DNA of 64,000 bases from [Mycobacterium] crassicus. GTDB taxonomy: Bacteria; Actinomycetota; Actinomycetes; Mycobacteriales; Mycobacteriaceae. The translations under genes and the position numbers were made by a program. The notes beneath the pieces were generated by a model. That model ran no database searches and was not told where the DNA came from. It saw only the letters and a program-made list of their open reading frames with translations. The DNA is taken from the NCBI RefSeq assembly GCF_020181615.1, contig NZ_CP084029.1, positions 3,299,963 through 3,363,962 on the forward strand, given 5' to 3'. Shown here in pieces: positions 21,515 through 47,603 of this stretch; within the stretch, counting starts at the first letter, position 1, and every line of letters begins with the position of its first letter.

Positions 21515-22420
21515 TTAGCGGATCGTGCGAACCATGTCGGCGGACATCGCACCCAGCTGCGAACTCCACGAACCCCAGCCATGATCGCCGCCGAGCGGGA
21601 AGTCGAAGTGGCCGTTTCGCCCGCCGACGGCGACGTACTGCTCGTGAAACATCCGGTTGCTGCCCTGCGCCTCCTCTGCGGCGCCGAGCATCGCGGCGGG
21701 ATCACTAGCGGTCGGGCTTTGCGGGCTGAACACCCAAATCCGGCTGTTGTTCTGTGCCAGCAGTGCGGCATGCACGTGCGGGTCATGCCATTTCCACCGG
21801 CCGAATTGCGCTGCTCCCCACATATCTTGACTGTTCACCCCACCGAACTGCGCCATGCCGGCGGTGATCGCGCCGTTCACATTGGTCCGTGATGGGTAAA
21901 GAAAGCCCGACATTGAACCGGCGTAACGGAATCGGTCGGGATGGAAGCAGGTCAACGCCATCGCCGCGTATCCGCCCTGCGAGGCGCCGACAACGGCGTG
22001 ACCGCCGGGGGCAAGGCCCCTATTGGCGGCCAACCAGTCCGGCAGTTCGCTAGACAGAAAAGTCTCCCACTGCCTACTGCCGTCGCGCTCCCAGTCGGTG
22101 TACATGCTGTAGGCACCGCCCGCAGGTGCAACCACCGAAACGCCCCTGCCGGAAAGCGTGTTCATCGCATTGCCGGCGGTGACCCAGTTGCTGACGTCGG
22201 GGCCGGCATCGAACGGGTCCAGCAGGTATACCGCGTGTGATCCGCCGGCCATGAAGGTCACCGGGATGTCGCGGCCCATCGCGGCCGACGGCACCATCAG
22301 ATTCTCTGCGCCGGCCGCATGGGCCGAGCCGACGGACCCAGGGGTCGCCGTGACGCACCCCAACCCGACCGTCAACACGGCCCCGAACAACAGCCGCAAC
22401 AACGCCGAAAGACCCTGCAT
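21515..22420 (-). CDS. Secreted MPT51/FbpC1-like antigen 85-family protein
   Basis: This 301-residue exported alpha/beta-hydrolase-fold protein is closely related to MPT51 (Rv3803c): NLMVPSAAMGRDIPV, DVSNWVTAGNAMNTL, GSMSGFLYPS and the C-terminal GHFDFP are shared. An N-terminal signal peptide spans about residues 1-36 and ends AHA. At the nucleophile elbow it reads GASQGG (Ser147), whereas MPT51 as remembered has GAAQGG and is non-catalytic. ATG 22420 has a GAGGGAG site. It is the last gene of the leftward Mce-led unit, 38 bp after the CAP-domain gene. It may bind fibronectin or sugars like MPT51, or be an active acyltransferase/esterase. Confidence 0.88.
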   Translation of the reverse strand: MQGLSALLRLLFGAVLTVGLGCVTATPGSVGSAHAAGAENLMVPSAAMGRDIPVTFMAGGSHAVYLLDPFDAGPDVSNWVTAGNAMNTLSGRGVSVVAPAGGAYSMYTDWERDGSRQWETFLSSELPDWLAANRGLAPGGHAVVGASQGGYAAMALTCFHPDRFRYAGSMSGFLYPSRTNVNGAITAGMAQFGGVNSQDMWGAAQFGRWKWHDPHVHAALLAQNNSRIWVFSPQSPTASDPAAMLGAAEEAQGSNRMFHEQYVAVGGRNGHFDFPLGGDHGWGSWSSQLGAMSADMVRTIR

Positions 22421-22458
22421 TGCTCCCTCACTCACCTTTCGCACGATCAACTCGCGCT

Positions 22459-23109
22459 CTACTTCGGCAACAACGAAGACGGCGGGTAGACGCCCCGCAG
22501 AATCCAGGCCCACCAGCTGTTCCCGAACTCGAGTTCGTCGCTGGCGTCGTAGTCGGGGCTGGGATCGAGCGGAATATTCTGTCCAGCGGTGTCGACAGGG
22601 TCCTGTGGCTGCCCGTACACCGCCACCACAACGGTGCGATCCATCCGGTTTTCCGACCACACCCCGATTTGACTGTTGGCACAGTCGGACATGACGGCGA
22701 ACGACGCCGGGTCGTAATACCACCGGTTGATCAGGTCAACGCCGCTGATCGCTATCGCGGGGTGGATCGCCACCGTCTCGGCCACCTGACCGCGGTAACC
22801 GGCGGCGTTGGCGCGGTCTTGAGCGGTCGACCCATCTGATCCGATGTCGCCGTCGAGACTGCGGTTGTCGCGCAAATCGTTGGCGTGCCACTGGGCGGCT
22901 CGTTGCAGTTGCGGACTGATCCTGACGTCGTTGGTGCAGCCAGCCTGATGCTGGATGGTGAAGACGTTGGCGACCACCCCGTCGTTGAGGCGTTTGTTGT
23001 TCGGTATGAGCGTGTTGTTGTCGTTGTCGGCGTGTAGGACGGGCGTGCCCAGAAATGCCCCAGCGGCAACAACCGCCAGAGCCGGCAGGGCCAGAGGCTG
23101 ATACAGCAT
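22459..23109 (-). CDS. Secreted CAP-domain (SCP/PR1-like) protein
   Basis: This 216-residue exported protein has a signal peptide over about residues 1-25 (LALPALAVVAAGAFLGTP) and a bacterial CAP domain: NDVRISPQLQRAAQWHANDLRDN, then AETVAIH and DPASFAVMSDCANSQIGVW. ATG 23109 is chosen because GAGGAG lies about 8 bp upstream; an ATG at 23124 would add five residues without a ribosome site. Bacterial CAP proteins bind lipids or sterol-like ligands or act at the envelope. Its place directly after the Mce-associated genes suggests an extracytoplasmic role in substrate capture. Confidence 0.83.
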   Translation of the reverse strand: MLYQPLALPALAVVAAGAFLGTPVLHADNDNNTLIPNNKRLNDGVVANVFTIQHQAGCTNDVRISPQLQRAAQWHANDLRDNRSLDGDIGSDGSTAQDRANAAGYRGQVAETVAIHPAIAISGVDLINRWYYDPASFAVMSDCANSQIGVWSENRMDRTVVVAVYGQPQDPVDTAGQNIPLDPSPDYDASDELEFGNSWWAWILRGVYPPSSLLPK

Positions 23110-23126
23110 TTTCGATCTCCTCATCG

Positions 23127-23540
23127 TCAGGGGGCGGGAACGGGCGGCGGACGATAATGTGCTGCCGAGTTGCGCAGCTGCCAGATTTGCTCGGGGCACA
23201 GTTCGTTGACTGCGCGGTCAATCAGATACGACGCCTGGAAGACGTCGGAGGTGTTGATATCGCCCTGCACGTCGACTATCAGCTGGGCGTAACCGCGGCC
23301 TTGAGATACCTTGTCGCAGATGCCGTATCCGTAATTCAGGGCTGCGTCGGCGCTAGCGAAGCCATAACCGGGCCGCGCCGCGATCTGGATCAGATAGGCC
23401 AGTTTCTTGTCCCCCTCAACATCGGCCCGTGCATCCGGCGTGATCGCCGCGAAGGCGAATAGCGCCGCCCACCCGAAAGCCGCACCCGCCAGCGACTTTC
23501 CCAGCGTGCGAAGGATTACCGATAGGCGCTGCATCATCAT
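23127..23540 (-). CDS. Secreted DUF732-family protein
   Basis: This 137-residue exported protein has a signal sequence over about residues 1-39 (ending DARA), then a DUF732-like domain with two cysteines (YGICDKV and NELCPEQ) that probably form a disulfide. The GYGFASADAALNYGYGICDKV segment is characteristic of this mycobacterial family. Function unknown. It starts 7 bp after the second Mce-associated gene and is followed 17 bp later by the CAP gene, so it is part of the same transcript. MMMQ at the N-terminus leaves the exact start open by up to two codons. Confidence 0.82.
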   Translation of the reverse strand: MMMQRLSVILRTLGKSLAGAAFGWAALFAFAAITPDARADVEGDKKLAYLIQIAARPGYGFASADAALNYGYGICDKVSQGRGYAQLIVDVQGDINTSDVFQASYLIDRAVNELCPEQIWQLRNSAAHYRPPPVPAP

Positions 23541-23547
23541 GGCCGGA

Positions 23548-24171
23548 TCACACCGGGTCGAATTGAGAGATCAGCCAGCGGCCGTCGACCTTGTCGAGTG
23601 TGACCCGAACGCTGGAGGCGGTGTTGGTCGGCGCATCCTGGCCGATGGTCACCAGCTGGTTGACGAACAGGAGGGCGACTGCGTGGCGGTCGGTCGACGA
23701 CACCGACGCGGCCGCGGGAACGGTGGCCACCGCTGAGATTTTTTTCTGCTTCGCCCCGGGGATCACCACGTCGTGCGTCAACAACGTGTAGGCGTCCAAA
23801 AACGGGCCGGTGAGTCGACCTCGGGCGGCCGCAAGGTCCGTTTCCACCGTGTCGGGCTTATACGACAGCAGCGCGATGGTGCCGTCGGTGGCGGCCCGCA
23901 CGGATTCCGTGGCGGGCGCCTGCGCGTTGCGAACCGAGCCGTCCTGCCATTTCAGCAAACCCGCCGCCGCCAGCAGCAGCAGCAGTGCGGGCAGCACCCC
24001 GTAGGTGAGCACGTACGCCGGAAGGGGGCGGCGCCTCGACTCCGGCAGTCGGTCCTGCTGGGCTGACTCGTCGACGCCGGCGCACGCTTCGATGACCGGG
24101 GTCTCGTCCCGCACATTGACCGCGGCGGTATCGGTGGAGCCATTGCGGCGGCCGGACCTCAGTAACCTCAT
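23548..24171 (-). CDS. Mce-associated membrane protein (Mam), second
   Basis: This 207-residue protein has a cytosolic N-terminal stretch of about 50 residues, one transmembrane helix (VLTYGVLPALLLLLAAAGLL, about 53-72) and an outside domain with an NTF2-like fold pattern ending VDGRWLISQFDPV, as in Mam proteins encoded after mceF. These stabilise or bridge the Mce complex in characterised systems. Its ATG overlaps the stop of the first Mam gene by 4 bp. Confidence 0.87.
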   Translation of the reverse strand: MRLLRSGRRNGSTDTAAVNVRDETPVIEACAGVDESAQQDRLPESRRRPLPAYVLTYGVLPALLLLLAAAGLLKWQDGSVRNAQAPATESVRAATDGTIALLSYKPDTVETDLAAARGRLTGPFLDAYTLLTHDVVIPGAKQKKISAVATVPAAASVSSTDRHAVALLFVNQLVTIGQDAPTNTASSVRVTLDKVDGRWLISQFDPV

Positions 24172-24818
24172 GGCACAAACCCCACATTCGAGATCTTCAG
24201 TTGATCGTCGACTTTCTGCACCGACATCCGCATCCGCCAGGCTCGCGGAATCTCGTCGGGCACCCCTGCGTACGACACCTGCACGGTCACGGCCACCAGG
24301 ACTTGGGCCGTGTCGCCGGTCTCCGATTCCAGCCCGGCCTCGGTGACCTCGCCCACCGAGGTCGACTTGAATTTGTTGACGAGGTCGATGAACGGCTGTG
24401 ACCTTTGGGCGAAGTCGTCGTAGAACTTGCCGGTCGCGCCGTCCATAATGCGATGCACATCAGCGTCCGCGTGCTGCCAGTCAATCGTCGTCAAATTCAG
24501 CGCGCCCTGTCGGGCAACCTGCAGGTATTGACTTCGCTGGACCTGCACCTCATGCGACTGGTAAGCCCGAAAACCCAGCCATCCCACCAGTACCGCCAGC
24601 GCGACGACGGCGGTCAGACCGCACAGCATCGCGTGCCGGGGCCCGACCAGCTGCGTTCTGGACTGCGCGGCCGCCGCGTCAGTTGCGTCGGCTAACTCGG
24701 ATTCACCAACGCCCTCTTCGGCGGCTTCGAGAGACGCCGCATCCTCGGCAGCTTCGGTGGACTCGGCATCCTGGATGTCCTCGACGTCGTGGTCCAGCAT
24801 CAGTTCAGCCATTCGCAT
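24168..24818 (-). CDS. Mce-associated membrane protein (Mam), first
   Basis: This 216-residue protein has a very acidic cytosolic N-terminus (DVEDIQDAESTEAAEDA and similar, about residues 10-60), one transmembrane helix (AMLCGLTAVVALAVLVGWLGF) and an external domain ending RMRMSVQKVDDQLKISNVGFVP. This is the standard mce-distal Mam architecture. ATG 24818 is favoured because AGGA lies 5 bp upstream; ATG 24812 is an alternative. It lies 46 bp after mceF. Confidence 0.87.
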   Translation of the reverse strand: MRMAELMLDHDVEDIQDAESTEAAEDAASLEAAEEGVGESELADATDAAAAQSRTQLVGPRHAMLCGLTAVVALAVLVGWLGFRAYQSHEVQVQRSQYLQVARQGALNLTTIDWQHADADVHRIMDGATGKFYDDFAQRSQPFIDLVNKFKSTSVGEVTEAGLESETGDTAQVLVAVTVQVSYAGVPDEIPRAWRMRMSVQKVDDQLKISNVGFVP

Positions 24819-24864
24819 ACCGTCCTGTGTTCGTGGTGGTCGATAAGGAATTCCGCCATCGCGA

Positions 24865-26322
24865 TCAGCCTCCCGGCGGCAGCAGCATCGTTTGCCATGT
24901 TTTGTCCTTCTGCACCGTTTGGGCCAAGTCGGATTGGGTGTACTGGCGCCCGTCGGGCCCGACATAGGTCTCGGTAGCCGGGTTGTATTCGGCGGCGGCA
25001 ACCGGTGGTGGCGCCGGCTTGGGTGAACCCGTTGCCCCCAGCACACCTGGCGGTAGCTCGGGTATGTCCTGGCCGGAGAAGGTGGCGTTCGGATCGCCTT
25101 TCCAGTTGAAACCGTCGTTGATCGGCACATACTCCGCATCGCCTTCGCACACCTCTACCAAAGCGGCGCGTTTGCCGGGCTTTCCCGCGCACGGGGTGTT
25201 GCGCGCGCCGCGCACACCGGTAAGGGCCGAGTCCTGCGGGATTCGGCAGTACAGCTCGCCGGGTGCACGTTCCGGGTAGTCCTCAAGCGAGGCATCCCGT
25301 CGCTGCTGGGCCGGCAGGAACCCGGTAGTGCACGGTGGCGGCACGTTGAAATTGAGGTTGAAGCTCAGGTAACCGCCCCGGTAGGCCTGTTTGGTGTTGA
25401 CGTTGGCGACGATCCCAGCTGATTCGTCGGCGACGACCTGGGGCAAAAAGACCAGCATTTGTTCGATGTTGCTGTGATAGGTGAGGGCGACCTGGCTGGG
25501 GCTGACCAAATTGGCCAGCATGACGGGCAGGGTGGGTTGTAGGCGCTCGACCAGTCGGCGGGCCTCGCCGAGCGGCGGGCCGCCGGCTTCGATGACGCCG
25601 GCGACGGCATCGTCGTGGGTCTGCAACTCGCGGGTCACCGTAGCCAGCCGTGTCGCCCACGTCCGAATCGCATCCGACGTTTCGGTCTGCGAATCGAGCA
25701 CGGGCTTCGAATTGTCGATCAGGGCTAGTAGCGGATCTAGATTTTCGCGGGCGTCGATCGACAGATCGGTGACGCCTTTGACGAGCCTGGAAAGCTCCGG
25801 GCCGAGCCCGCCCACCGCGGTGTACGACTCATCGACAACGGTCTTGAGGTTGTCCCGGGGCACCGCCCGCAGGCCGACGTTGGCGGCGTCGAGTAACGAG
25901 TTGACGTCGGGCGGCACCGACGTGTCTTTCAGCGCGACCACGTCACCGTTCTTCAATGGCGGCGAGGTGTCGTTGCGCGGCAGTAACTCGAGGTACTGCT
26001 CCCCGATCGCCGACTGGCTGTGTACCTCGGCCTTGAGTTCCGACGGGATGTCGATGCCGGACTTCAGCGACAGTACGGCCACCACCCCGGTGTCGGTCAG
26101 CTTCACGGACTGCACCGCGCCCACCTCGAAGCCGCGGTAGGTGACATTGCTGGTGTTGTACAGGCCGCCGGTCCGGGGCAATTGCACCGTTACGGTGTAG
26201 CGGCCCACACCGAACCACTTGGCCGGCAATTTCATGAAATGCAGGGACATCAGCGTGAGCACGGCCAGCGTGATCACTGCGAAGGCGGCGAGCCGGATTA
26301 CCGTCGTTCGGTTCAGATGCAT
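24865..26322 (-). CDS. mceF: Mce family protein MceF
   Basis: This 485-residue member is the last of the six Mce subunits. An N-terminal membrane anchor (VIRLAAFAVITLAVLTLMSLHF) is followed by the MlaD/MCE domain (YTVTVQLPRTGGLYNTSNVTYRGFEVGAVQSVKL), a long helical region and a Pro-rich C-terminus ending in LPPGG. The six proteins form a heterohexameric needle that shuttles lipids across the periplasm. The ATG begins 1 bp after the mceE stop. Two cysteine pairs lie in the C-terminal third, typical for MceF. Confidence 0.94.
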   Translation of the reverse strand: MHLNRTTVIRLAAFAVITLAVLTLMSLHFMKLPAKWFGVGRYTVTVQLPRTGGLYNTSNVTYRGFEVGAVQSVKLTDTGVVAVLSLKSGIDIPSELKAEVHSQSAIGEQYLELLPRNDTSPPLKNGDVVALKDTSVPPDVNSLLDAANVGLRAVPRDNLKTVVDESYTAVGGLGPELSRLVKGVTDLSIDARENLDPLLALIDNSKPVLDSQTETSDAIRTWATRLATVTRELQTHDDAVAGVIEAGGPPLGEARRLVERLQPTLPVMLANLVSPSQVALTYHSNIEQMLVFLPQVVADESAGIVANVNTKQAYRGGYLSFNLNFNVPPPCTTGFLPAQQRRDASLEDYPERAPGELYCRIPQDSALTGVRGARNTPCAGKPGKRAALVEVCEGDAEYVPINDGFNWKGDPNATFSGQDIPELPPGVLGATGSPKPAPPPVAAAEYNPATETYVGPDGRQYTQSDLAQTVQKDKTWQTMLLPPGG

Positions 26323-26323
26323 G

Positions 26324-27481
26324 CTAGGGCCCTTGGTCCCAGTGGTACGGAATCGTAAGTGGATTGCCCAGATTGAAGTGGCCACCCGCCATGCACGGGC
26401 TGGGGTACTGCCCGATGGTGCGGCCCCACTGCAACTCCAGTTCGGTCAGGTCGCACTCCCACTTGGTGCCGGTAAAAAAGCCCTGATCCATCCGACTGAG
26501 CGTGAGGTCGAAGATCGAGGTCAGGTTGGCGTAGTCACCGCGTTGCCATTTTTCGAGGGTTTCGTTCGGGAACGGGAAGGTGGGAAGCAGCCCAAGCGCG
26601 CGGGTCAGGGCGGGGCCGGCGTTGGCCAGCGACTCCAGCACCGGCCCGACCTGCTTGAATTCCTTGACCAGGTTGTCTTTGCTTTCGTTGACGGTGACAG
26701 TGGTCAGGGCGCTGAACTTACCGAGCTGGTCGGCCGCATCGACGAGGGTGCCCCGCTCGTTGTTCAACACCGCGAGCGCGTCCGGGATGGCCTTGACCGC
26801 CCGATCCAGGACCGGTTGCTGGTCGGCAATCTTTCCGACTATGCGGTTCAGGCCCTCGGTGGCGGCGATGATGTCACCGGACTGGTCGTTAAGGTTTGCG
26901 GCAAAGACGTCCAGCTGTTGGACCAGGCTGCGCAGATCCTGCTCTCGACCGCGAAACGCCGTGCTCAATGCCGCGTTGATGTCGCCCAATTGGCCCAGCC
27001 CGCCACCATTGAGCACCAGCGACAGCATCGCCAGCGTCTGCTCGACAGTCGGGTAGGCCCCCGCACGGGACAGTGGAATGAGCGATCCGTTGCGCAGTCT
27101 GCCTTGCGGCGGTTCGCTTGTCGGCGGCGCCAGTTCGATGTGCAACGAACCGAATATGGTGGTCATGCCGATCTTGACGGCGGCGTTGGCGGGCAGGTCG
27201 ACATCGCCATCGAGGCGCATGGTCAACAACGCATGTTTGCCCTGAAGTTCGATTTTCGACACATGACCGACCGTCACGTCGCCGACCCGCACCCGCGAAT
27301 TCTCTTGGATGTTACTGACATCAGGCATCTGCGCCTGGATCGTGAACGCGCCGGGGCCATTTCCCTGGGTGCCCGGCAGCGGCAGCGAATTCAACCCCCG
27401 CCAGCCGCAACCAGATGTCCCGACTGCGATCACGATCATCGTCAGGCCCGCCATCGCGCGGTGCCGCCAACCGAATCTCAT
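26324..27481 (-). CDS. mceE: Mce family lipoprotein MceE
   Basis: This 385-residue lipoprotein of the LprK/LprN type has signal peptide MIVIAVGTSGC with the lipidated cysteine at about residue 25, followed by the family hallmark GWRGLNSLPLPGT. The MCE domain reads MPDVSNIQENSRVRVGDVTVGHV, then comes a helical segment rich in heptads. It anchors the complex to the membrane outer face. Start ATG overlaps the mceD stop by 4 bp. Confidence 0.95.
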   Translation of the reverse strand: MRFGWRHRAMAGLTMIVIAVGTSGCGWRGLNSLPLPGTQGNGPGAFTIQAQMPDVSNIQENSRVRVGDVTVGHVSKIELQGKHALLTMRLDGDVDLPANAAVKIGMTTIFGSLHIELAPPTSEPPQGRLRNGSLIPLSRAGAYPTVEQTLAMLSLVLNGGGLGQLGDINAALSTAFRGREQDLRSLVQQLDVFAANLNDQSGDIIAATEGLNRIVGKIADQQPVLDRAVKAIPDALAVLNNERGTLVDAADQLGKFSALTTVTVNESKDNLVKEFKQVGPVLESLANAGPALTRALGLLPTFPFPNETLEKWQRGDYANLTSIFDLTLSRMDQGFFTGTKWECDLTELELQWGRTIGQYPSPCMAGGHFNLGNPLTIPYHWDQGP

Positions 27482-28800
27482 CGGATACCTCCAGCGGGCA
27501 GCATCATGCCGGGCAGACCGGCCGCAGGATCGGTGGCAACCGTCTCGGTGGTCGGCGCCTCAGCCGCCAACGGCGGCTGCAGGGCCGGTACGGCGGCGGG
27601 CGGCGGCGAATCTTGCACCGGCGGAACGAAATCAGGTCGCATCCGGTTCTCGCTGTAGGTGACTTCATTGGGCCTGGCCTGCGGTCCGACATAGAAGTTC
27701 TCCCCCAGCGGGAGGAAGTTGTACTGGCGGTTCTTCACAATCGGCGCCAGATACTGCACACAGAGCTTCGAGGCTTGGTCGAAATTCAACCGGGATGCGG
27801 CCTGTACTGCACCGCAGAAGAATTCGATCGGATTATTGAAGTTACTGGCCGCCATCACCCCGGTCAGCGAACCGTTGGCCGGCTCGTAGATGGCATTGAA
27901 GTTGGATATCGTCGTCGGGGCGAGGTGCAAGACCCGTTTGATGTCGCCGAGGCTTTCGACAACCGCGCTGCTGACCGACGCCAACTTGTCTGACGTGGTG
28001 CCCAGCGCCTCGCGGTTTTCGGCGACGAAGCTCTGCACGTCACCGACAACGGCATTGAGGTTCTCGACTGCCCGACCGACCTTGTTCGGGTCATCGGCCA
28101 GCAGCGTCGAAACCTCGGCCAGGTTGCGGTTCAGCTGACTGAGCAGGCTGCTGCTGTCGCGCAGCGCCGACACCAGCGTCGACAGGCTCTTAATAGTGCC
28201 GAAGACATCTTTGCTGTGATCCCCGAGCGCCGAAACCGCCTGCGAGAGTTTGACGATGCTGTCGCGGATATCGCCGCCTTGCCCGCGCAGGTTGTCGGCG
28301 GTGGTGTTGATGAGTTCACCCAGTGTGCTCACACCGCCCGGCTCGGTCGGCTGGAGTAATTCGGTCAGCCGCACAAGTTGGGCGCGGATGTCATCCCACT
28401 CCACCGGCACCGCGGTGCGATTTTCTGGGATGACCGCCCCGTTGCGCATCGTTGGGCCGCCGGTGTAGGGCGGGGTCAGCTGGATGGCCCGGCCGGTTAC
28501 CAGCTGCGGCGACAGGATCGCAGCTTTGGCCTCGGCGGGGACTTTGTACTTGCGGTCGAACCAGAACGTGATCCTCGACCGCAACGGCTGCGGTTCGATC
28601 TTGCTGACCTTGCCGACCGGCACCCCCCGGATGCGCACGTCGTCGCCGACAAACAACCCGCTGCTGTTGTCGAAGTAGCCGACCACCGTCGTTCGGGTGA
28701 TCCGATCGAGGCCTCGCACCGCGGCGGATCCCCCGATGACGACCACCAGCGCCAAGGCAGCGAGTGAGACAACCCGATGCTTTCGCGGCCATCCGATCAC
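27478..28800 (-). CDS. mceD: Mce family protein MceD
   Basis: This 440-residue Mce subunit starts at a GTG that overlaps the mceC stop (GTGA). An N-terminal anchor (VVSLAALALVVVIGGSAAV) precedes the MCE domain (VVGYFDNSSGLFVGDDVRIRGVPVGKVSKIEP), then long alpha-helical repeats and a Pro/Ala-rich C-terminal tail (PPPAAVPALQPPLAAEAP). Tail and length fit MceD proteins. Confidence 0.94.
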   Translation of the reverse strand: MIGWPRKHRVVSLAALALVVVIGGSAAVRGLDRITRTTVVGYFDNSSGLFVGDDVRIRGVPVGKVSKIEPQPLRSRITFWFDRKYKVPAEAKAAILSPQLVTGRAIQLTPPYTGGPTMRNGAVIPENRTAVPVEWDDIRAQLVRLTELLQPTEPGGVSTLGELINTTADNLRGQGGDIRDSIVKLSQAVSALGDHSKDVFGTIKSLSTLVSALRDSSSLLSQLNRNLAEVSTLLADDPNKVGRAVENLNAVVGDVQSFVAENREALGTTSDKLASVSSAVVESLGDIKRVLHLAPTTISNFNAIYEPANGSLTGVMAASNFNNPIEFFCGAVQAASRLNFDQASKLCVQYLAPIVKNRQYNFLPLGENFYVGPQARPNEVTYSENRMRPDFVPPVQDSPPPAAVPALQPPLAAEAPTTETVATDPAAGLPGMMLPAGGIR

Positions 28801-30137
28801 GGTCGGCCTCCCGTCTGCTCCGACGGCGCCGGCTCACCCGGGGCGGGCACGTACACCGGCGACGGCCCCGGCAGCGGCGAACCCAGTCCCGGTGGCGCCG
28901 GCGCGGGCGGGCCCGGTGGTGGGCCTCCGGGCGGCGCCGCCGGCGGCTCTGCGCGGTACGGGTAGCAACCCGTGCCCCAACCACATGGACTGTCCTCCGG
29001 GTTGCCGGTGATCGCGTCCGGCAGATACACCCGCGGGTTGCCGCCCTGGCCGGTCCGCGGATACGGCACCGGCAGCGGCGGGGTTCCCGGCTGGCCGATC
29101 TGCGGGTCGACCAGCTGCGACGGCATCAACGTGGCCGGGTCCAAACCCAGATCGGAGAATGCCGACTCGACGTATGGTTGGACGAACTGCCCCGGGAAGA
29201 GGTTGACCACGTAGGCATTGAAGAACGGGCCCGACGAAAGCGCCTCACCAAGCGACAAAATGTAGGTGCCGAGCCCCCGGATGGCTTGTTGGACACGCTC
29301 TTTGCGCTGGTCGATGATCGCCAGGACGCCGTTGAGCCTGTCCAGCGCCGGGCGTAACTGCTGCCGATTCTCGGCGATGAATCCCTTCAGTTGCAGCGAC
29401 GCCGCCGAGATGTTGTTGGTGATCTGATCCAACGCCGCACTTTGCGTCCGCAGCTGTGCCAGCAACGCATTGGTGTCGCGCACCAGACTCACCACCTGAT
29501 CTGCGCGCTTGGCCAGCACCCCGGTGGCCTTGGCCGCGTTGTCCAGCAGGTTGCGCAATTGGCTGTCGCGGGTGTCCAGAGTTTGGGCAAATCGCGCCAC
29601 ACCCTGCACCGCTTTTTTGACGTCGGGCGGGGTATCGGAGAAGGTCTCCGCGACGGTCGCCAACGAGTCGGACAACTGGTCGGTATTCAGCCCGCTCACG
29701 GTGCTGGCCAAGTCGCCCAGGGCCTCCGGCAGCTGGTAGGGCGACACCGTACGGTCGATTGGGATCGCGCCGACCAGCCGTCCGTCGCCACGCGGTGTGA
29801 CGTCGACCATCTTGGTGCCCAACAGCCCCTTGGTTTTTATCGCCGCTTCGGTGCGGTCCCCCAGATGGATGTTCTTGGCGACGGTGAACTTGACCAGCAC
29901 ACCGGGTCCGTCGAGTGCGATGCTGGAGACCTTGCCCACCGAGTAGCCCGAGACCTCCACTCCGGCGCCGGTGAACAGCCCACCGGCGTCGGCGAAATAG
30001 CCGGAGACGGTTCTCGTCTGATTGACCAGCGGCAGGCTGCCGAACTGCAGCGCTCCGACGATAGCCACGGCGATTACCGCGATGCCGACGGCACCGACGG
30101 CCAGCGGGCTGCGTTCAGAGAACGATTTCCCTTTCAT
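28797..30137 (-). CDS. mceC: Mce family protein MceC
   Basis: This 446-residue Mce subunit has an anchor helix at about residues 14-32 (AVGAVGIAVIAVAIVGAL), an MCE domain with TVSGYFADAGGLFTGAGVEVSGYSVGKV, then the helical tunnel-forming region. The last 70 residues are almost all Pro, Gly and Ala (PPGGPPPGPPAPAPPG), a trait of MceC. ATG 30137 overlaps the mceB stop; an upstream in-frame GTG at 30149 would lie within mceB and is less likely. Confidence 0.94.
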   Translation of the reverse strand: MKGKSFSERSPLAVGAVGIAVIAVAIVGALQFGSLPLVNQTRTVSGYFADAGGLFTGAGVEVSGYSVGKVSSIALDGPGVLVKFTVAKNIHLGDRTEAAIKTKGLLGTKMVDVTPRGDGRLVGAIPIDRTVSPYQLPEALGDLASTVSGLNTDQLSDSLATVAETFSDTPPDVKKAVQGVARFAQTLDTRDSQLRNLLDNAAKATGVLAKRADQVVSLVRDTNALLAQLRTQSAALDQITNNISAASLQLKGFIAENRQQLRPALDRLNGVLAIIDQRKERVQQAIRGLGTYILSLGEALSSGPFFNAYVVNLFPGQFVQPYVESAFSDLGLDPATLMPSQLVDPQIGQPGTPPLPVPYPRTGQGGNPRVYLPDAITGNPEDSPCGWGTGCYPYRAEPPAAPPGGPPPGPPAPAPPGLGSPLPGPSPVYVPAPGEPAPSEQTGGRP

Positions 30138-31162: not shown

Positions 31163-31196
31163 GGCATTTCTCCTGCCTGTCGTAGATCGCTCATGG

Positions 31197-32570: not shown

Positions 32571-32574
32571 TCCG

Positions 32575-33441: not shown

Positions 33442-33442
33442 T

Positions 33443-37021: not shown

Positions 37022-37081
37022 TCCCCATCTCCCCTGCTGAATCGATCATTTCGTTAGACATTCTCATCAGTATGATTTCAG

Positions 37082-38202: not shown

Positions 38203-38213
38203 GGGAAGGCAGC

Positions 38214-40169: not shown

Positions 40170-40274
40170 GCTCCCGAATCCCATTCCGCACGTCACGGTC
40201 CGCCCTGTGCCCAGCTACCGCCAGATCAGGGCCAAAATTGACTGCGTGACCGGTTATCTGGACGCTCGGCAGAG

Positions 40275-40934
40275 CTACGGCTGGTTAACTCCCAGCGCTC
40301 TCAGCGCAACGCTGGTCATCTGATCGACAAGGGTCGCGCGTTGGGTTGGGTCAGCCGGATGGGCCCATGTCCACATGAACGAGATCATCCCGGTCACCGC
40401 ATGTGCTGCCGTCAACGGGTCCTCGGCGACGAACTCCCCGGAGCCAACCCCTTTGGCGATCAGTCGGCTGACGCGGTCATCTACCTCGCCGCGTACAGCC
40501 ATAATCCGCTTGCGGTCCTCTTCGCGCAGCGCACCAATGTCACTGGCGTAGGTGGCGAGATACTTTCCGTGGCCGATGACGATCTCAGTCAGCCGACGGC
40601 AAAACGCGCGCATTTGTTCGACCGCTGACTCCGTGGAACTATCGCTGTCAGCAATCGCGGACAAAGTCAGCTCGGCGCCGGCGGTACAAACGCCGTTGAG
40701 GATCGCTGCCTTGTCTTTGAACTGATAGTAGACAAACTGCTTCGACATGCCGAGGGCACTGGCGATGGCGTCCACGGATGTGCCGTGGTACCCGTTGCGC
40801 TGGAACAACTCCACTGCAGCGTCGAGGATCTGCTTGCGCTTGAATTGGGTGATCTCGTCTCTGGCGGAAACCTTCGGGGGCAGTTCCGGTTCCACCTCCA
40901 CAGCCTTCTCGCCTCCTGATACATGACGACGCAT
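40275..40934 (-). CDS. TetR-family regulator of the monooxygenase/Mce region
   Basis: This 219-residue regulator has a helix-turn-helix in DAIASALGMSKQFVYYQFKDKAAIL, about residues 55-79, and an all-helical ligand domain. ATG 40934 is annotated; a GTG 11 codons later, preceded by AGGAGG at 10 bp, is an alternative start. A large inverted repeat lies just upstream (40950-40987). It is convergent with the Baeyer-Villiger gene and divergent from the fatty acid transporter, so it is the only local candidate regulator for the accessory region. Confidence 0.9.
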   Translation of the reverse strand: MRRHVSGGEKAVEVEPELPPKVSARDEITQFKRKQILDAAVELFQRNGYHGTSVDAIASALGMSKQFVYYQFKDKAAILNGVCTAGAELTLSAIADSDSSTESAVEQMRAFCRRLTEIVIGHGKYLATYASDIGALREEDRKRIMAVRGEVDDRVSRLIAKGVGSGEFVAEDPLTAAHAVTGMISFMWTWAHPADPTQRATLVDQMTSVALRALGVNQP

Positions 40935-40949
40935 ACTGAATCGACCGAT

Positions 40950-40987
40950 CCTGTACTCACGTGGATGTTAGCATCCGTGAGAACAGG
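40950..40987. promoter_or_regulatory. Inverted repeat, probable TetR operator
   Basis: Arms CCTGTACTCACG (40950-40961) and CGTGAGAACAGG (40976-40987) pair at 11 of 12 positions around a 14-bp spacer that itself contains GGATG / CATCC. It starts 15 bp before the TetR ATG, a position suited to autoregulation. The remaining intergenic DNA up to the transporter at 41249 shows a GAGGAG ribosome site (41235-41240) and no convincing gene. Confidence 0.6.
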
Positions 40988-41248
40988 CGGCCCCAGCAGA
41001 GCCCATCAGCACCACTGTCACCGTCGAACCAACAGTGGCACGAACGACGGTCTCGATCTGCTTGTTGAATGTCTTAATTCCGCCGTCGAACGCCTTCCAC
41101 CAACGAGTCAGGTAGCGGAGGGCGGTCTTGACCTTGGCCATCAGGAGGCGCTCGGGACGCGCGCACAGTTCAGCGACATGACCTCCCAGCATTGACGGGA
41201 TCGACTTTAGTATCGACCGCGGCACGATTCTGACGAGGAGTTGGCGTG

Positions 41249-42646
41249 ATGACCGAGCTACGGACACAACGTCGGGGCATGATGCAGTCGCTCACCGGGC
41301 TCAGCGTCCGCTACGTCGAGCGACTGATGCCCGACCCGTATCTGTTCGCGGTGATCCTCACGCTCATCGTGGCCGGTCTGGTCGCCACGCTGGTGCGCGG
41401 GGCCTCGGCCGGCGGCATGCTGCAGGCGTGGTACGCCGGCGTGTGGGGCCCGCAGAACATCTTCACGTTCGCGTTCCAGATGGTGCTGATCCTGGTGACG
41501 GGCTACACGCTGGCCGAGGCGCCGGTGCTGAAGCGGGCCATCGTCCGCGTCGCGGCAACGCCCCGCAACCAGGTGCAGGGGGCGCTGCTGTGCTTCACCG
41601 TGAGTGCCGCTGCGTCCCTGCTGAACTGGGGCCTCGGGCTGGTGACCGGCGCACTGGTCGCCCGCCAGGTCGCGCGTCGTTTTCCCGACTCGCATTTCGG
41701 TTACCTGATCGCCGCGTCGTTCATGGGTTTCATCGTCTGGACGCAGGGGCTCTCGTCGTCGATTGCGCTGGCCAACACCGACGCCGACAGCCCCATCAAC
41801 GTGATCCACAAGATCGCCGGATTCAACGTGCCGTTGAGCCAGACCATCTTCCAGCCGTACAGCTGGCTGTCGGTGTTGATCGTGCTGGCGGTGCTCGCGC
41901 TGGCGGTGCGGCGGATGGAGCCTTCCGAGAGCCTGGCACCCGATGCCGCGGTATTCGACGACGACGCAGCAGCGGTCGAGCCGCCGAGCAGCAAGACGTT
42001 CGCCGAATGGCTGGAGAATCAGTGGATCCTCAACGTGCTCCTGTTCGCCTCGGGCATAACGTACTTCGCGGTAAGCGGCTTCGTGCTGAACATCTCCTCG
42101 ATGATCATGCTGTTCACCATCACCAGCGCCCTGTTGCACCGCACGCCGATCCGGTTCATCCGGGCGTTCACCGGTGCCGCCAAGGTATCCGGCCCCCTGC
42201 TGCTGCAATATCCGCTGTACGGCGGCCTAATCGGCCTGCTCGCGTATCAGGGCGCCGAAGGTTCCACGCCGCTGCAGACACTGCTGGCCCAGACCCTGGT
42301 GAACGGCGCGAGCCAGTACACGCTGCCGTTCCTGACGTTCATCAGCTCGGTGATCATCAGCCTGTTCGTACCCTCCGGTGGCGGGCACTGGGCGGTGCAG
42401 GGTCCGATCGCGGTCGACTGGGCGCTGGCGATCGGCCAACACTCACCCGCCTACCTCGGGTTGATCTCCATGGCCGTCGCCGTCGGCGAGGGGGTGGCGA
42501 ACATGATCCAGCCGTTCTGGCTGCTGCCGCTGCTGGCGATCGCCAAGCTCAATGTCCGTCAGGTGATGGGTTTTACCCTCGTGGCGTACGTCATCGGGTT
42601 GGCGGTGTTGGGGACGATGACGTTGATTGCGCCACTGGTGATCTGA
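41249..42646 (+). CDS. Short-chain fatty acid transporter (AtoE family)
   Basis: This 465-residue polytopic membrane protein has about 11-12 helices. Family features include RYVERLMPDPYLFAVILTL near the N-terminus, LNWGLGLVTGALVARQVARR and the re-entrant LFVPSGGGHWAVQGPI. AtoE proteins take up butyrate, acetoacetate and similar short acids. ATG 41249 (8 bp from GAGGAG) is preferred to the GTG at 41246. It may move short acids released by ester hydrolysis in the neighbouring pathway. The next gene starts 145 bp on. Confidence 0.9.
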   Translation: MTELRTQRRGMMQSLTGLSVRYVERLMPDPYLFAVILTLIVAGLVATLVRGASAGGMLQAWYAGVWGPQNIFTFAFQMVLILVTGYTLAEAPVLKRAIVRVAATPRNQVQGALLCFTVSAAASLLNWGLGLVTGALVARQVARRFPDSHFGYLIAASFMGFIVWTQGLSSSIALANTDADSPINVIHKIAGFNVPLSQTIFQPYSWLSVLIVLAVLALAVRRMEPSESLAPDAAVFDDDAAAVEPPSSKTFAEWLENQWILNVLLFASGITYFAVSGFVLNISSMIMLFTITSALLHRTPIRFIRAFTGAAKVSGPLLLQYPLYGGLIGLLAYQGAEGSTPLQTLLAQTLVNGASQYTLPFLTFISSVIISLFVPSGGGHWAVQGPIAVDWALAIGQHSPAYLGLISMAVAVGEGVANMIQPFWLLPLLAIAKLNVRQVMGFTLVAYVIGLAVLGTMTLIAPLVI

Positions 42647-42791
42647 TGGCATACACCGCCCACGCTTGCAACGGCTTTCCCCACGTGGCGTTCGCTATTG
42701 CTTGATATCTGCTCATGCGTGCCGGATGCTCGTGGTGGAAGCACACTCACCGATTCCTCCCCTAGTGCCCTGGTCGCGAAGGAGAACGGCG

Positions 42792-43592
42792 TTGAAGACA
42801 CCGGAAGCCGACAGCCTGGGCAGAGTCTCCGCCGCCCTGCGAGACTGCTACGCCGCGATGGAAGCCCTCTGCACCGATCTCAGCGATGCCGAGTGGGGGG
42901 CTGCGTCACTGTGTCCGGACTGGACGATCCGCGACGTGATCAACCACGTCACCAGCATCGAAGCGGTAATGGCAGGGTGGCTGCCCGACGACGATCGCAC
43001 CCCGCCGCCGTTCGAGAAGGCCGCGGACTTCCTGCACGGCGCCGACACCGACGGCGCCAGGTACAGCGAACTGGTGCGCGCGATCTATGACCGTCGCCGA
43101 CGCGACCTGGCCGCGTTGTCCGACGCGGATCTGATGCGACCGTCATGGACTCCGGTCGGCCCCGCCACCTACGGGAGGTTCCTTCAGATCCGGGTCTTCG
43201 ACTTCTGGGTGCACGAACGAGACATCACCACCCCGCTCGGCCGCACAACCGATGACGCCGGCCTCGGGGCCCAGATCGCGCTGGCTGAGGTGGCCGGCTC
43301 CTTGGGCTACATCGTCGGCAAGAAGGTGGGCCTTCCCGACGGAAAGAGCATCACCTTCGACCTCACCGGACCCCTCCCGCGCCAGTTGCATGTCGCCGTG
43401 GACGGACGAGCCAAAGCTGTTGACCACCTGGAGAATCCGGATGTAACGGTGGTCACCGATTCCACGACCTTCATCCAACTGGCGTGCGGGCGCATCGACC
43501 CGCAGGCCCAGATCGACTCCGGTGCCATAACCTGGAAGGGCGATGCCGAACTCGGCGATCGCGCCGCCCGCAACCTGAGGTTCACGATGTGA
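42792..43592 (+). CDS. Maleylpyruvate isomerase-family mycothiol-dependent enzyme
   Basis: This 266-residue protein has an N-terminal DinB-like metal/mycothiol domain ([24 protein letters not shown], then [12 protein letters not shown], giving the expected metal-binding histidines) and a C-terminal SCP2-like domain ([25 protein letters not shown]). The start is a TTG at 42792 with AAGGAG 7 bp upstream; a longer frame to 42666 lacks a ribosome site. The downstream GTG overlaps its stop, so it is coupled to the DsbA-like gene. Mycothiol-dependent isomerisation or conjugation is likely; substrate unknown. Confidence 0.85.
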
Positions 43593-44302
43593 CGAGTCGC
43601 CCGGATTTCGTCGACTTCCACTTCGACGTCATGTGCCCGTATGCGTACCAGACGTCGCGGTGGATCCGGGAAGTCCGCGACCTGACCGGCCTCACGGTGA
43701 ACTGGCGCTTCTTCAGCCTGGAGGAGATCAATCGCCAAGAGGGCAAGAAGCATCCCTGGGAACGCGAGTGGTCCTATGGCTGGTCGATGATGCGCATCGG
43801 AGCACTGCTGCGTCGCCGATCGATGACCGATGTCGATGCCTGGTATGAACGCGCCGGCCGCGCTCTACACGTCGAGGGCCGCAAGCCGCACGAGAAGGCG
43901 GTCGCCCGCTACCTGCTCGAAGAACTCGGATTCGATCCCGGACTGGTCGACCAGGCGATTGCTGACCCTACGACCAGCGACGAGGTGCTGGCTGACCATC
44001 ACCGGGTGGTCGCCGCCAGCGGTTATGGGGTACCCACACTGTTCTTTCCCGACGGGCAGTGCCTCTTCGGACCCGTGCTCATCGATCCGCCCAGTGGCGA
44101 AGCTGCGGTTCGCCTGTGGGAGACCGTAGTCGGCTGGACCGAGTTTCCGCACCTGTACGAACTGCAGCGGCCGAAGACTCCCGCCGACGAACAGCGCATT
44201 GCCGAGACCTTCCGACCATATCTGGAGGCCCGCGACTGGGTGTCGATCAACCGCGGAGAGGTGGTTACCTTCACCGACCGGGAACACGGGAAACCCGCGT
44301 GA
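43589..44302 (+). CDS. DsbA-fold protein of the Rv2466c mycothiol-reductase family
   Basis: This 237-residue thioredoxin-fold protein starts at a GTG overlapping the previous stop. [20 protein letters not shown] matches the active-site start of Rv2466c-type enzymes, and [27 protein letters not shown] matches their cis-Pro and FGPVL region. Rv2466c as remembered has CPWC; here the motif is CPYA, so the second cysteine is missing. A monothiol mechanism with mycothiol, or a glutathione-transferase/isomerase-like role as in HCCA isomerases, is then more likely than disulfide exchange. It is coupled to the mycothiol-dependent isomerase gene. Confidence 0.85.
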
Positions 44303-44370
44303 AATGAACCCTAGGCCAATGATCACCATTGCGCCGGAACAGGATCCAGCGGCGGCCTATGCTGCCCGAT

Positions 44371-47300
44371 ATGGCCGACTTCACCGCGTCGCTGCCCCCG
44401 GAACTGGACAGCGTTCCATCCGCCGAGGGACCGCTGCCACCACCGTCTGACCTCGTCGGTCGGCCCTATGCACTGCCCATCGACATCCTCGGAGAGCTCC
44501 ATGGGCCGCTGTTCTACGCCGACTTCACCGGTGCGCGAAAGCTGTACGCGTGCTCGCGGGAGGTGGTCGAAGAACTGTGCGACGAGAACCGGTTCGCCAA
44601 GAACCTGATGCAACCGTTGGAGCGGGTCCGCCACCTCGCCGGTGATGGGCTGTTCAGCGCCTACCACGGTGAGCCGAATTGGCAGAAGGCCCACGACGTC
44701 CTGATGCCCGGTTTCAGCTATGCCGGGTTGCGCAACTACCACAGCGCCATGCTCGACATCGGCACCCAACTGATCGACCGTTGGGATGCCTGTGTCGGGG
44801 ATCGACCGGCGGATGCGTCCACCGACCTGCAGAAGCTGGCAATGGACACCGTCGGCCTTGCCGGTTTCGGAGCACGATTCGACTCTTTCAGCCACCAGGG
44901 CCTTGCCCCCATCCCGCAGAGTTTCACCGCGGCCCTGGGTGAGCTCCGAAAGAACGAGATAACGCCCCAATTCGACCAGGACCTGGCCTATCTGCATCGC
45001 AGCCTCGACGAATTGGTCGAGCAGCACCGAACAACTTCCGCACCCGAATCCGACGACCTGCTCTACGTCATGCTCGGGAGCGACGCCGACGGCGAACCAC
45101 TGCTGAGCTCGGACAACGTCCGCAATCAGATCATGACTTTCCTCATCGCCGGCCAGCTGACCACGTCGGAGCTGATGCCGATCACGCTCTACAACCTGAT
45201 GCACAACCCGGTAGTGCTGTCTCGTGTCGCGGCCGAAGTCGATGCCGTGTTCGGCGTGGACGACGACTACCTGCCCACCTACGACGACATCGGAAAGCTC
45301 GGGTATCTGCGGCAGGCGATCAACGAAACGCTGAGACTGTCCCCACCGGTGGTCGGCTTCGACCGAATGGCATTGGCGGACACCGTCATCGGCGACAAGT
45401 ATCCGATCAGAAAAGGCGAGGCCGTCTCCGTGCTCACCGGTGCGCTTCATCGTCAGCCCGAATGGGGTGACAACGTCGAGCTCTTCGATCCGGACAGGTT
45501 CGACACCGCCCGATCCGCCGGCAGGCCCGGAGCGGTGTTCAAACCCTTCGGCACCGGGGCACGATCCTGCATCGGACGTCAGTTCGCTCTGCACGAGGCC
45601 ACCATGATCATCGCGCGGCTGATCCACCGATATCGCCTGATCGACTCGCAACACTATGTGCTGCGATTCGAAAGCGATCGCAGTCGGCGCCCGGTCGGCT
45701 TTGAGCTCGACCTGATCCGGCGCACACCGCAGGAGCGCCGCGACGCCGCAGCCTCGGCCGCCCCGACGCCGGAGCGGAGCGCGTCGGAGGCCGGCTCCGC
45801 GGTCAAAGCCGGCACCACGCTGGCCGTGCTGCATGGCTCGAACCTCGGAACCTGCCGCGCCCTGGCCAAGCAGCTTGCCGAAGAGGCCACCGACCTTGGT
45901 TGTACCGCCAGCGTCGCGCCCCTGGACGATTTCGCCGACGCCCTGCCGAAGACCGATGCCATCGTCATCGTCGCCTCGTCCTACAACGGTCAGCCGACCG
46001 ACGACGCACGCGCCTTCCTCGCCTGGCTGCTCGGTGCGGACGCCACACTCGAGGACGCTCCGTATTTCGCGGTACTCGGTGTCGGGGACCGCAACTGGGC
46101 CGACACCTACCAGGCGGTGCCCAAGCACATCGACGAACGCCTGACCGAACTGGGCGCCCAGCCTCTGATCCCGATGACCTCAGCCGATGTCTCAGGGGAT
46201 CTCAATGGCACGGTCGAGGAATTCTCCGCGGCGTTGCGCGACGCGCTCTACCGGCACTTCGGCGATCCGGACGCGACGCCGGTCACCGACGCCGACGAGC
46301 CCCTCTACGACATGCATCCGATCTTCGGCCCCGTCACTGCGGCGATCGACGCCCGGTTCGCCGTGACACCGATGACGGTCCTGGACAACACCGCACTGGT
46401 GGGTGACGACGTGACCCTCGGAGGAGCCAAACGCTTTGTCCGCGTTGCCCTTCCCGAGGGAGTCGAGTACCAGACGGGTGATCACCTGACTGTCCTGGCG
46501 GACAATCCCCCGGATCTGGTCACCACGGTGCTCGAGCTTCTCGGTATCGAAGGCGAACGGCGGCTGTCGATCAATCCCCGGCGCACCTCGCGGCGGCTGA
46601 TCGCACTCGACCGGGAGGTGAGCGCGCGCGAACTGCTCACCCACTTCGTCGAGCTGCGAAAGCCGGCTACCCGTAGCCAATTGCGCCGTCTGGCAGCGTC
46701 CAACCCGTGTCCACCCGAGCGCGAGCGCCTCGAGCAACTCGCCGCATCGGCGGATCCGTGCGCTCTCAGTCCGCTGGAATGCCTGCGGGAGTTCCCAGCC
46801 TGCGAGCTGACGGGAGCAGAGCTGCTCGAGCTGCTGGACCCGATGACGCCGCGCCACTACTCCATCGCGTCGTCCTCGCGCCTGACACCGGGCCGGGTCG
46901 CGCTGGTGGTCAGCGTGCTCGACGCGCCGGCCCGGTCGGGTCATGGACTGTTTCAGGGTGTGGCCTCCAACCATCTGGCCGCCATGGCCCCTGGAGCACA
47001 GATCCGGGCGCGGGTCGATCCGGCCCGCCAGGCGTTCCGTGCGGGTGCCGACCCCGCCAGGAATGTGATCCTGGTCAGCGCCGGTACCGGTGTCGCCCCG
47101 TTCCGCGGCTTCCTCGGCGACCGCTTGGCAGCAAGACATCACGGAACCCCCTACGCGCCGGCGTTGTGTTTCTTCGGCGTCCGGGATCCGGACGTGGACT
47201 ACATCTTCCGCGAACAGTTCGAGGCCGCCGAAGCGGTGGGAATAGTCCGAATGCGTCCCGCCTTCTCCCGCGCACCGCAAAACGGTGTGCGCTACGTGCA

Positions 47301-47529
47301 GGACCGGATCGCCGCCGACGGCGACGAGGTGTGGGAGCTGCTCGGCGACCCCGCCAAGCAGACCCACGTCTACGTGTGTGGTGACGGCGCCCAGATGGCG
47401 CCGGCGGTGCGGCAGGCCTTCATCGACATCTACCGCGCGCGCACCGGTGGCGACGAGAGCCAGGCCCGCGACTGGCTTATCGGCCTGGTGGAGTCCGACC
47501 GCTACGTCGAGGATGTGTGGGCCGGATGA
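44371..47529 (+). CDS. Self-sufficient cytochrome P450 / CPR fusion (CYP102-like)
   Basis: This 1052-residue fusion resembles P450 BM3. The P450 domain (1-455) has ExxR as ETLR at 319-322 and the haem loop FGTGARSCIG with Cys400. A linker leads to the FMN domain (LHGSNLGTCRALAKQL from 488, SYNGQPTDD), an FAD domain (RHYSIASSS) and an NADPH site (SAGTGVAPFRGFLGDR), ending VEDVWAG exactly as BM3 does. The I-helix reads AGQLTTS (260-266) where BM3 has AGHETTS: the conserved Glu is Leu263. Start is uncertain: ATG 44371 or ATG 44359, neither with a clear ribosome site. The family hydroxylates fatty acids and alkanes. Confidence 0.93.
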   Translation: MADFTASLPPELDSVPSAEGPLPPPSDLVGRPYALPIDILGELHGPLFYADFTGARKLYACSREVVEELCDENRFAKNLMQPLERVRHLAGDGLFSAYHGEPNWQKAHDVLMPGFSYAGLRNYHSAMLDIGTQLIDRWDACVGDRPADASTDLQKLAMDTVGLAGFGARFDSFSHQGLAPIPQSFTAALGELRKNEITPQFDQDLAYLHRSLDELVEQHRTTSAPESDDLLYVMLGSDADGEPLLSSDNVRNQIMTFLIAGQLTTSELMPITLYNLMHNPVVLSRVAAEVDAVFGVDDDYLPTYDDIGKLGYLRQAINETLRLSPPVVGFDRMALADTVIGDKYPIRKGEAVSVLTGALHRQPEWGDNVELFDPDRFDTARSAGRPGAVFKPFGTGARSCIGRQFALHEATMIIARLIHRYRLIDSQHYVLRFESDRSRRPVGFELDLIRRTPQERRDAAASAAPTPERSASEAGSAVKAGTTLAVLHGSNLGTCRALAKQLAEEATDLGCTASVAPLDDFADALPKTDAIVIVASSYNGQPTDDARAFLAWLLGADATLEDAPYFAVLGVGDRNWADTYQAVPKHIDERLTELGAQPLIPMTSADVSGDLNGTVEEFSAALRDALYRHFGDPDATPVTDADEPLYDMHPIFGPVTAAIDARFAVTPMTVLDNTALVGDDVTLGGAKRFVRVALPEGVEYQTGDHLTVLADNPPDLVTTVLELLGIEGERRLSINPRRTSRRLIALDREVSARELLTHFVELRKPATRSQLRRLAASNPCPPERERLEQLAASADPCALSPLECLREFPACELTGAELLELLDPMTPRHYSIASSSRLTPGRVALVVSVLDAPARSGHGLFQGVASNHLAAMAPGAQIRARVDPARQAFRAGADPARNVILVSAGTGVAPFRGFLGDRLAARHHGTPYAPALCFFGVRDPDVDYIFREQFEAAEAVGIVRMRPAFSRAPQNGVRYVQDRIAADGDEVWELLGDPAKQTHVYVCGDGAQMAPAVRQAFIDIYRARTGGDESQARDWLIGLVESDRYVEDVWAG

Positions 47530-47597: not shown

Positions 47598-47603
47598 CTT
47601 TAG

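Follow-up and report, generated by a model that had tools for sequence, protein, structure and literature searches.

An accessory island of [Mycobacterium] crassicus in which an Mce importer may feed a ketone-lactone-acid route

The stretch analysed here, called the window, comprised 64,000 nucleotides of [Mycobacterium] crassicus (contig NZ_CP084029.1, positions 3,299,963 to 3,363,962), in which an island was identified that carried a mammalian cell entry (mce) operon together with genes for an SMP-30 protein, the ligase FadD, a short-chain dehydrogenase/reductase (SDR), a Baeyer-Villiger monooxygenase (BVMO) and a TetR regulator. Gene identities were assigned by Pfam, NCBIfam and PDB comparisons, and every gene named by a first-pass annotation of this DNA was recovered in its place; the TetR, esterase, CAP-domain, MDMPI and mycothiol-nitroreductase-like genes had not been mentioned there. 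The features of the island were as follows.

21343 to 41242 (19.9 kb), no strand: the island, absent from the syntenic relative G069
21515 to 22723, minus: esterase (PF00756, 154.1 bits), last gene of the mce unit, probably starting later than its open reading frame (ORF) does
22459 to 23199, minus: CAP-domain protein (PF00188), kept after mce in loci L101-L104, L106-L108, L110 and L120
23548 to 24171, minus: Mce-associated protein 2, no Pfam match, 66-78% in orthologous mce loci
24168 to 24860 (part of ORF 24168-25139), minus: Mce-associated protein 1, no Pfam match, 53-65% in orthologous mce loci
24865 to 26385, minus: mceF (PF02470, 64.6 bits)
26324 to 27481, minus: mceE (PF02470, 52.6 bits)
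27478 to 28800, minus: mceD (PF02470, 61.2 bits)
28797 to 30149, minus: mceC (PF02470, 58.1 bits)
30134 to 31200 (within ORF 30134-31456), minus: mceB (PF02470, 62 bits)
31197 to 32609, minus: mceA (PF02470, 55.4 bits; PF11887, 257.8 bits)
32575 to 33441, minus: yrbEB permease (PF02405, 161.9 bits)
33443 to 34306, minus: yrbEA permease (PF02405, 180 bits)
34343 to 35287, minus: SMP-30/gluconolactonase-like protein, putative lactonase (PF08450, 80.1 bits, E 2.6e-22)
35312 to 37021, minus: FadD acyl-CoA ligase, FadD11-like (PF00501, 207.4 bits; WTSGTTGAPK)
37082 to 37103, no strand: 22-bp palindrome TCTCAGACGAATTGGTCTGAGA, candidate operator between the divergent fadD and SDR genes
37462 to 38202 (start probably 37504), plus: SDR dehydrogenase (PF13561, 155.8 bits; TGASGGIG, YAASK)
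38214 to 40169, plus: type I BVMO (FAGPVVHSARW, GGTWRDNIYPGCAVD, GAGESG)
40275 to 40934, minus: TetR regulator (PF00440, PF17932), kept beside the BVMO (69% in L060, 72% in L053)

The Mce importer was complete, with two YrbE permeases followed by MceA-F on the minus strand (24865-34306). On the same strand the gaps were 24 bp between FadD and SMP-30, 36 bp between SMP-30 and yrbEA and 1 bp between yrbEA and yrbEB, after which the genes overlapped, and FadD, SMP-30 and the eight transporter genes are likely to form one transcription unit. The lactonase and FadD genes had already been described as co-directional with mce, and this was confirmed, with the SDR-BVMO pair diverging from the unit. 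Esterase relatives accompanied mce elsewhere too: one (57%) followed the orthologous operon in L101, and another (66%) preceded an mce operon in L243.

The source genome (4.87 Mb, one contig) contained 48 MlaD matches forming eight clusters of six, so the mce operon as such was not unusual in it. A single MceG/Mkl-type ATPase was matched at E 1e-40 or better (G000:C1:816377-817363), with 77% identity to a plasmid Mce ATPase. Elsewhere in this genome, a YrbEA match stood without MlaD nearby (G000:C1:852629-853408), and six clustered MlaD matches (3924004-3930220) had no YrbEA partner at E 1e-30, possibly an odd or split mce locus.

Type I BVMOs are marked by the fingerprint FxGxxxHxxxW(P/D) and the GxGxxG motif. 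In the window protein, which had an N-terminal extension of about 140 residues, FxGxxxHxxxW was present as FAGPVVHSARW at 293 and GxGxxG, which binds flavin adenine dinucleotide, as GAGESG at 150. Cyclohexanone monooxygenase (PDB 7V8O, 228.8 bits) was its best solved relative, and its best NCBIfam model was pentalenolactone D synthase PtlE, whose score (145.6 bits) lay so far under the 1100 needed that the family does not reveal the substrate. The SGL domain of the SMP-30 protein exceeded its cut-off (80.1 against 26.3 bits). SMP-30/gluconolactonase proteins bind metal through Glu, Asn and Asp; T-N159 and P-D209-G aligned with the same letters in PDB 7PLB, and E25 fell outside the alignment. 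The ligase was FadD11-like and not FadD11, its best NCBIfam model being NF038343 (FadD11) at 539 of the 950 bits needed. A reaction order could be proposed because the enzyme families fit the series alcohol, ketone, lactone, hydroxy acid and coenzyme A (CoA) ester, which supports a coherent chemical order for the predicted SDR, BVMO, SMP-30 and FadD enzymes.

The limits of the island were given by G069, the sole relative with both flanks read. Its flanks (L235/L236) matched window positions 18684-20463, 20483-21342, 41243-47721 and 47768-50740 at 82-88% identity (blastn), the left one with a small insertion relative to window 18684-21342, and its UPF0182 gene was 91% identical. In place of the island G069 held 5371 bp of other genes. 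The island had a GC content of 63.5%, against 67.9% on its left, 65.5% at 41243-47721 and 69.9% beyond. Horizontal acquisition of the island is supported because it was missing between matching flanks and had the lower GC content; repeats at its ends, or a tRNA gene there, were searched for and nothing convincing was found.

The genes that follow the island to the right were these.

41246 to 42646, plus: short-chain fatty-acid (SCFA) transporter (PF02667), outside the island
Between the SCFA transporter and the P450: MDMPI gene and mycothiol-nitroreductase-like gene, outside the island
44329 to 47529, plus: CYP102-type P450-reductase fusion, outside the island
47603 to 47677: tRNA-Met, the sole tRNA gene of the window, outside the island

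The first-pass annotation had drawn one block from 21515 to 47529 and read P450, SDR, BVMO, lactonase, FadD and the short-chain acid carrier as a single system for subterminal oxidation. These genes lie side by side and could work together chemically, and the P450 is of the self-sufficient CYP102 type, its heme domain being fused to flavodoxin/reductase as CYP102 fusions require. However, the SCFA carrier, the MDMPI gene, the nitroreductase-like gene and the P450 fusion (41246-47529, plus strand) were kept in G069 at 87-91% identity, in the same order and 2.3 kb from UPF0182, without the island, and were therefore assigned to the conserved flank. In addition, of the 248 genus genomes searched (with the own one), 67 had a P450 match at E 1e-200, the best outside the own genome being 88% and one as low as 41%, against a BVMO orthologue in the own genome and three others of 396. 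The P450 and the carrier were thus rejected as pathway members, and the full pathway, largely refuted as an evolved unit, is very improbable. What stood was a real island at 21343-41242 and the coherent steps from SDR to FadD; the P450 hydroxylation and acid-uptake steps had no special link to it. The conservation of the block 41246-47529 is an observation in its own right, pointing to a link of mycothiol-related genes with the P450.

The region around the island was variable. At the site of the island G069 carried a gene resembling steroid dehydrogenases, an alpha/beta hydrolase gene, another BVMO (26% to that of the window, fingerprint FRGHTFHTSRWD; best relative in the window's genome only 53%), a TetR gene and one more ORF. 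This other hydrolase-BVMO-TetR set (L236:3539-8814) occupied the same chromosomal site, which might be one where ketone-degradation modules are swapped. Two small ORFs of G069 between alcohol dehydrogenase and SnoaL genes (L236:2005-2654), absent from the window, resembled a Phd/PIN toxin-antitoxin pair as judged from the letters alone. Among the 95 relatives covered by the UPF0182 comparison, two of those with the most similar gene, G022 and G016 (L233, L234; UPF0182 92% and 89%), had a different, distant mce operon (24-29%) about 5 kb left of UPF0182, and it is on this ground that the region is called variable.

The catabolic module and the mce operon had separate histories. BVMO orthologues (65-69%) were found in the own genome and in three others of the 396 genus genomes searched, the next best listed match being 44%; three candidates were scored per genome, and 353 of the 396 genomes had some match at E 1e-100. 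A second scan returned eight loci, the same three mycobacterial ones and others of 38-54% in other phyla or classes. In Mycobacterium moriokaense GAS496 (L060) the module was complete, with SMP-30 and FadD divergent from SDR, BVMO and TetR in the same order at 69-77%, but it stood there without mce. The FadD and SMP-30 ORFs of GAS496 overlapped (4329-5978, 3388-4332), and the module was followed on the opposite strand by cupin, SDR and old-yellow-enzyme-type genes until the contig end 3.4 kb away. Isolate RYN_164 had part of FadD, SDR, BVMO and TetR, with no SMP-30 match, on a 6.8-kb contig, and strain 852013-50091 had SDR-BVMO only, so that FadD stayed with SDR-BVMO in two of the three relatives (one on a short contig). 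No YrbEA match (E 1e-30) was found on the BVMO contig of these three genomes.

In 158 relatives, the own genome counted, no SMP-30 match elsewhere exceeded 37%, which extended over nearly the full length. The FadD search covered 397 genomes of the order, again with the own one, and scored three candidates in each; its top full-length match was 46%, with up to 57% over the last 270 residues. Wider databases gave SMP-30 relatives of 96% (a Mycobacterium metagenome-assembled genome) and 66-78% (eight further clusters), whose gene contexts were not readable.

The mce operon was widespread by comparison, 183 of 248 genomes (with the own one) giving a match at E 1e-90. The nearest MceA elsewhere was 73% (G525), and orthologous operons with MceA of 66-73% were present in 11 fetched loci, 10 of the first 17 ranked rows and one lower row. 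Neither SMP-30 nor BVMO lay upstream of mce in the 10 loci with a readable upstream side; a different FadD (28%, L101) and weak SDR matches (29-42% in L104, L106, L109 and L110) were found there, and L120 likewise had a weak SDR match (34%). A scan of eight upstream ORFs, taken from seven of these loci, gave an AMP-ligase and a LigB-type dioxygenase (L101), a P450 (L107), an aldehyde dehydrogenase (L108), a transposase (L102), weak flavoprotein/reductase matches (L106, L109) and a DUF222 protein (L120). The transposase (Pfam rve, Mu-transpos_C_2) and a second ORF, IS21-like by their look, stood directly upstream of the mce operon (L102:5965-7994) and are a possible vehicle for its movement. 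On a plasmid of M. paragordonae the same mce type adjoined ring-hydroxylating and extradiol dioxygenases.

Because the module occurs without mce in GAS496 and this mce type occurs without the module, the exact pairing looks recent and modular, and an old, fixed mce-BVMO system was rejected. The idea of a dedicated Mce transporter is accordingly weakened: FadD and SMP-30 likely share the mce unit, but the module was found without mce in GAS496 and mce without SMP-30 or BVMO in 10 loci. Enzymes lying elsewhere in relatives that keep the same mce operon had been named beforehand as an outcome that would count against the proposal, and in part this was seen, the two halves occurring separately.

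Two unrelated cargoes could also have landed side by side, mce importing a lipid of its own and the module degrading something else, with an accidental adjacency at a site of gene exchange. The occurrence of each half without the other, the different hydrolase-BVMO-TetR set of G069, by which the site evidently accepts other inserts, and the other mce operon near UPF0182 in G022 and G016 all speak for this. The 36 bp on one strand between SMP-30 and yrbEA are, however, tighter than random joining suggests, and nearness of mce to catabolic genes recurs. Such a coincidence is considered rather unlikely.

This recurrence was observed on plasmids. YrbEA relatives (E 1e-20) were present in 29 of 72,556 plasmid records, of which 17 were opened, 15 of them annotated and two unannotated. 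As judged from gene names and without a background rate, catabolic genes lay within 12-14 kb of mce in 12 of the 15 annotated plasmids, in nine distinct arrangements (H35/H40 and H45/H47/H53 being repeats), and were not clear in H43, H58 and H59. The neighbours comprised aromatic dioxygenases, P450s, flavin monooxygenases, BVMO with aldehyde dehydrogenase, alcohol/aldehyde dehydrogenases with FadD, acyclic-terpene utilisation genes and limonene genes. Rhodococcus plasmid pLW1 (NZ_CP079226.1), a biased case since it was found through FadD/BVMO similarity, had a FadD11-like ligase (43%), TetR, BVMO (33%, fingerprint FTGTAFHSLHWD), SDR, a hydrolase and mce in one stretch, as in the window; it differed in the low identities (YrbEA 35%), in an alpha/beta hydrolase instead of SMP-30, and in carrying an ATPase gene and beta-oxidation genes of its own. 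Among plasmids with a BVMO, the first two opened differed: pRB98 had mce about 8 kb from BVMO with transposases between, and pDK3 had no mce within 12 kb of BVMO. A plasmid of M. madagascariense was rejected as a BVMO-mce case, the 612-residue flavoprotein near its mce lacking the BVMO fingerprint.

Two terpene-related arrangements were seen beside plasmid mce operons. On the R. qingshengii CX-1 plasmid (L255, NZ_CP054208.1 156544-185266), genes annotated as limC, an LLM monooxygenase and limonene-1,2-epoxide hydrolase adjoined an mce operon that had an ATPase gene of its own. Rhodococcus strains WAY2 and DK180 carried plasmids (L245, L250) on which AtuA/acyl-CoA carboxylase sets lay about 10 kb upstream of mce.

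BVMO neighbourhoods were surveyed at the unselected ranks 5-64 of BVMO matches in the genus, and mce/yrbE matches were counted within about 9 kb of each (11 stretches shortened by contig ends). Control windows came from 20 genomes of this set, two from the first contig of each, at 1.0 and 2.5 Mb, or in G571 at 3.0 and 4.5 Mb. At least two mce/yrbE matches were near BVMO in 16 of 60 places against 4 of 40 controls (one-sided Fisher p 0.034), a modest enrichment with too kind a p value, the places being related by descent; at least one match was near BVMO in 18 of 60. By reading, the mce-bearing places fell into several arrangements. In L111 (L180 of the 60), aldehyde dehydrogenase, MaoC and CoA-transferase-type genes were followed by BVMO and then yrbEA; in L117, outside the 60, a P450, a ferredoxin-reductase-type gene and BVMO were divergent from mce. 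L111-L119 were left uncounted since they were chosen knowing that a BVMO or mce match was near. Thus BVMO genes with mce recur, but the exact pairing of the window was found in no other genome with readable context. The link between mce and the module is supported by the 24- and 36-bp gaps and by the repeated nearness of mce to catabolic genes.

A role in the envelope also has to be weighed, in which the module would modify envelope lipids or detoxify ketones, as proposed for the mymA operon of mycobacteria, and mce would move envelope lipids. BVMO, SDR and FadD genes stand together in operons of the mymA type too, and older work, in the accessible part of its text, linked Mce systems to the envelope (PMC1810536). 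The module was, however, rare and linked to its own TetR, and related mce operons lay near aromatic dioxygenases, limonene genes and acyclic-terpene utilisation genes. An envelope function appears quite improbable.

The reading preferred here, to which a probability of about 0.5 is given, is that of a horizontally acquired catabolic island with an Mce-fed route from ketone through lactone to acid. The Mce ABC importer (YrbEA/B, MceA-F), powered by an MceG-type ATPase encoded elsewhere, would take up a hydrophobic alcohol or ketone, alicyclic or terpenoid. An alcohol could be oxidized to the ketone by the SDR, and oxygen insertion by the BVMO would yield a lactone or ester; the lactone would then be opened to a hydroxy acid by the SMP-30 protein, and FadD would turn this acid into the CoA ester that general enzymes degrade by beta-oxidation. 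A single operon would comprise FadD, SMP-30 and mce, and TetR may control this operon and SDR-BVMO through an operator between the divergent units. The palindrome at 37082-37103 is a candidate, with one mismatched pair and arms that are unique in the genome even when two mismatches are allowed.

Several observations besides the modest BVMO-mce enrichment weigh against this reading. The last fingerprint position of the BVMO was T instead of P/D, and the island was without beta-oxidation genes. A palindrome as good was held by 12 of 3000 shuffles of the region at this length, but it had been picked from four lengths tried in eight regions; the palindrome was not seen in relatives, no operator motif was common to the window and its relatives, and a TetR operator shared with them was rejected. 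Catabolic genes are common on Rhodococcus plasmids, so their nearness to mce there may be unspecific, and among genomes with readable context the mce operon and the module were joined in this one alone.

To our knowledge, most mce operons have no known substrate. The established ones are fatty acids for Mce1 and steroids for Mce4, as given in the accessible parts of PMC9947336 and PMC6498646. Mce4 imports steroids and is paired with the cholesterol catabolon (Mohn et al. 2008 as cited in PMC6498646, accessible part), and Mce1 and Mce4 share the MceG ATPase (PMC9947336, accessible part). The same pairing of a yrbE/mce importer with a pathway, and an ATPase encoded elsewhere, is seen in the window, whose partners, in contrast to those of Mce4, were SDR, BVMO, SMP-30 and FadD on an accessory island. 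Steroid ring-degradation genes were absent from the 30 ORFs scanned at 17.4-53.3 kb, the rest of the genome not having been searched for them. Degradation of dihydrocarveol/menthol and limonene by Rhodococcus erythropolis DCL14 reportedly uses carveol dehydrogenase, a ketone BVMO, a lactone hydrolase and a CoA ligase. The order of chemical steps would be the same as in the window, and the limonene set adjoins mce on the R. qingshengii CX-1 plasmid; the window enzymes need not be orthologous to those of DCL14, however, and the lactone-opening enzyme of the window would be of the SMP-30 family.

In the literature searched, with most subscription journals outside it, nothing joined 'mce operon' or 'mammalian cell entry' with 'Baeyer-Villiger', and no link of mce with limonene or terpene was found in the text accessible; the word monooxygenase was absent from the accessible part of the 2007 survey of actinomycete mce operons (PMC1810536). 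Within that literature, the statement that linking an Mce transporter to such a pathway was not described holds for BVMO; importer-pathway pairing itself is known from Mce4.

It is possible, though rather doubtful, that mce operons form an interchangeable family in actinobacteria and serve as general importers, bringing in monoterpenoids, alicyclic ketones and further small hydrophobic compounds, each operon sitting beside the matching pathway and moving with it on plasmids and islands. If so, the window would be one importer-pathway cassette, terpenoids and alicyclic ketones would join sterols and fatty acids as Mce cargo, and the neighbours of an mce operon could predict its imported substrate, the linked enzymes giving a testable substrate guess for many orphan Mce systems.

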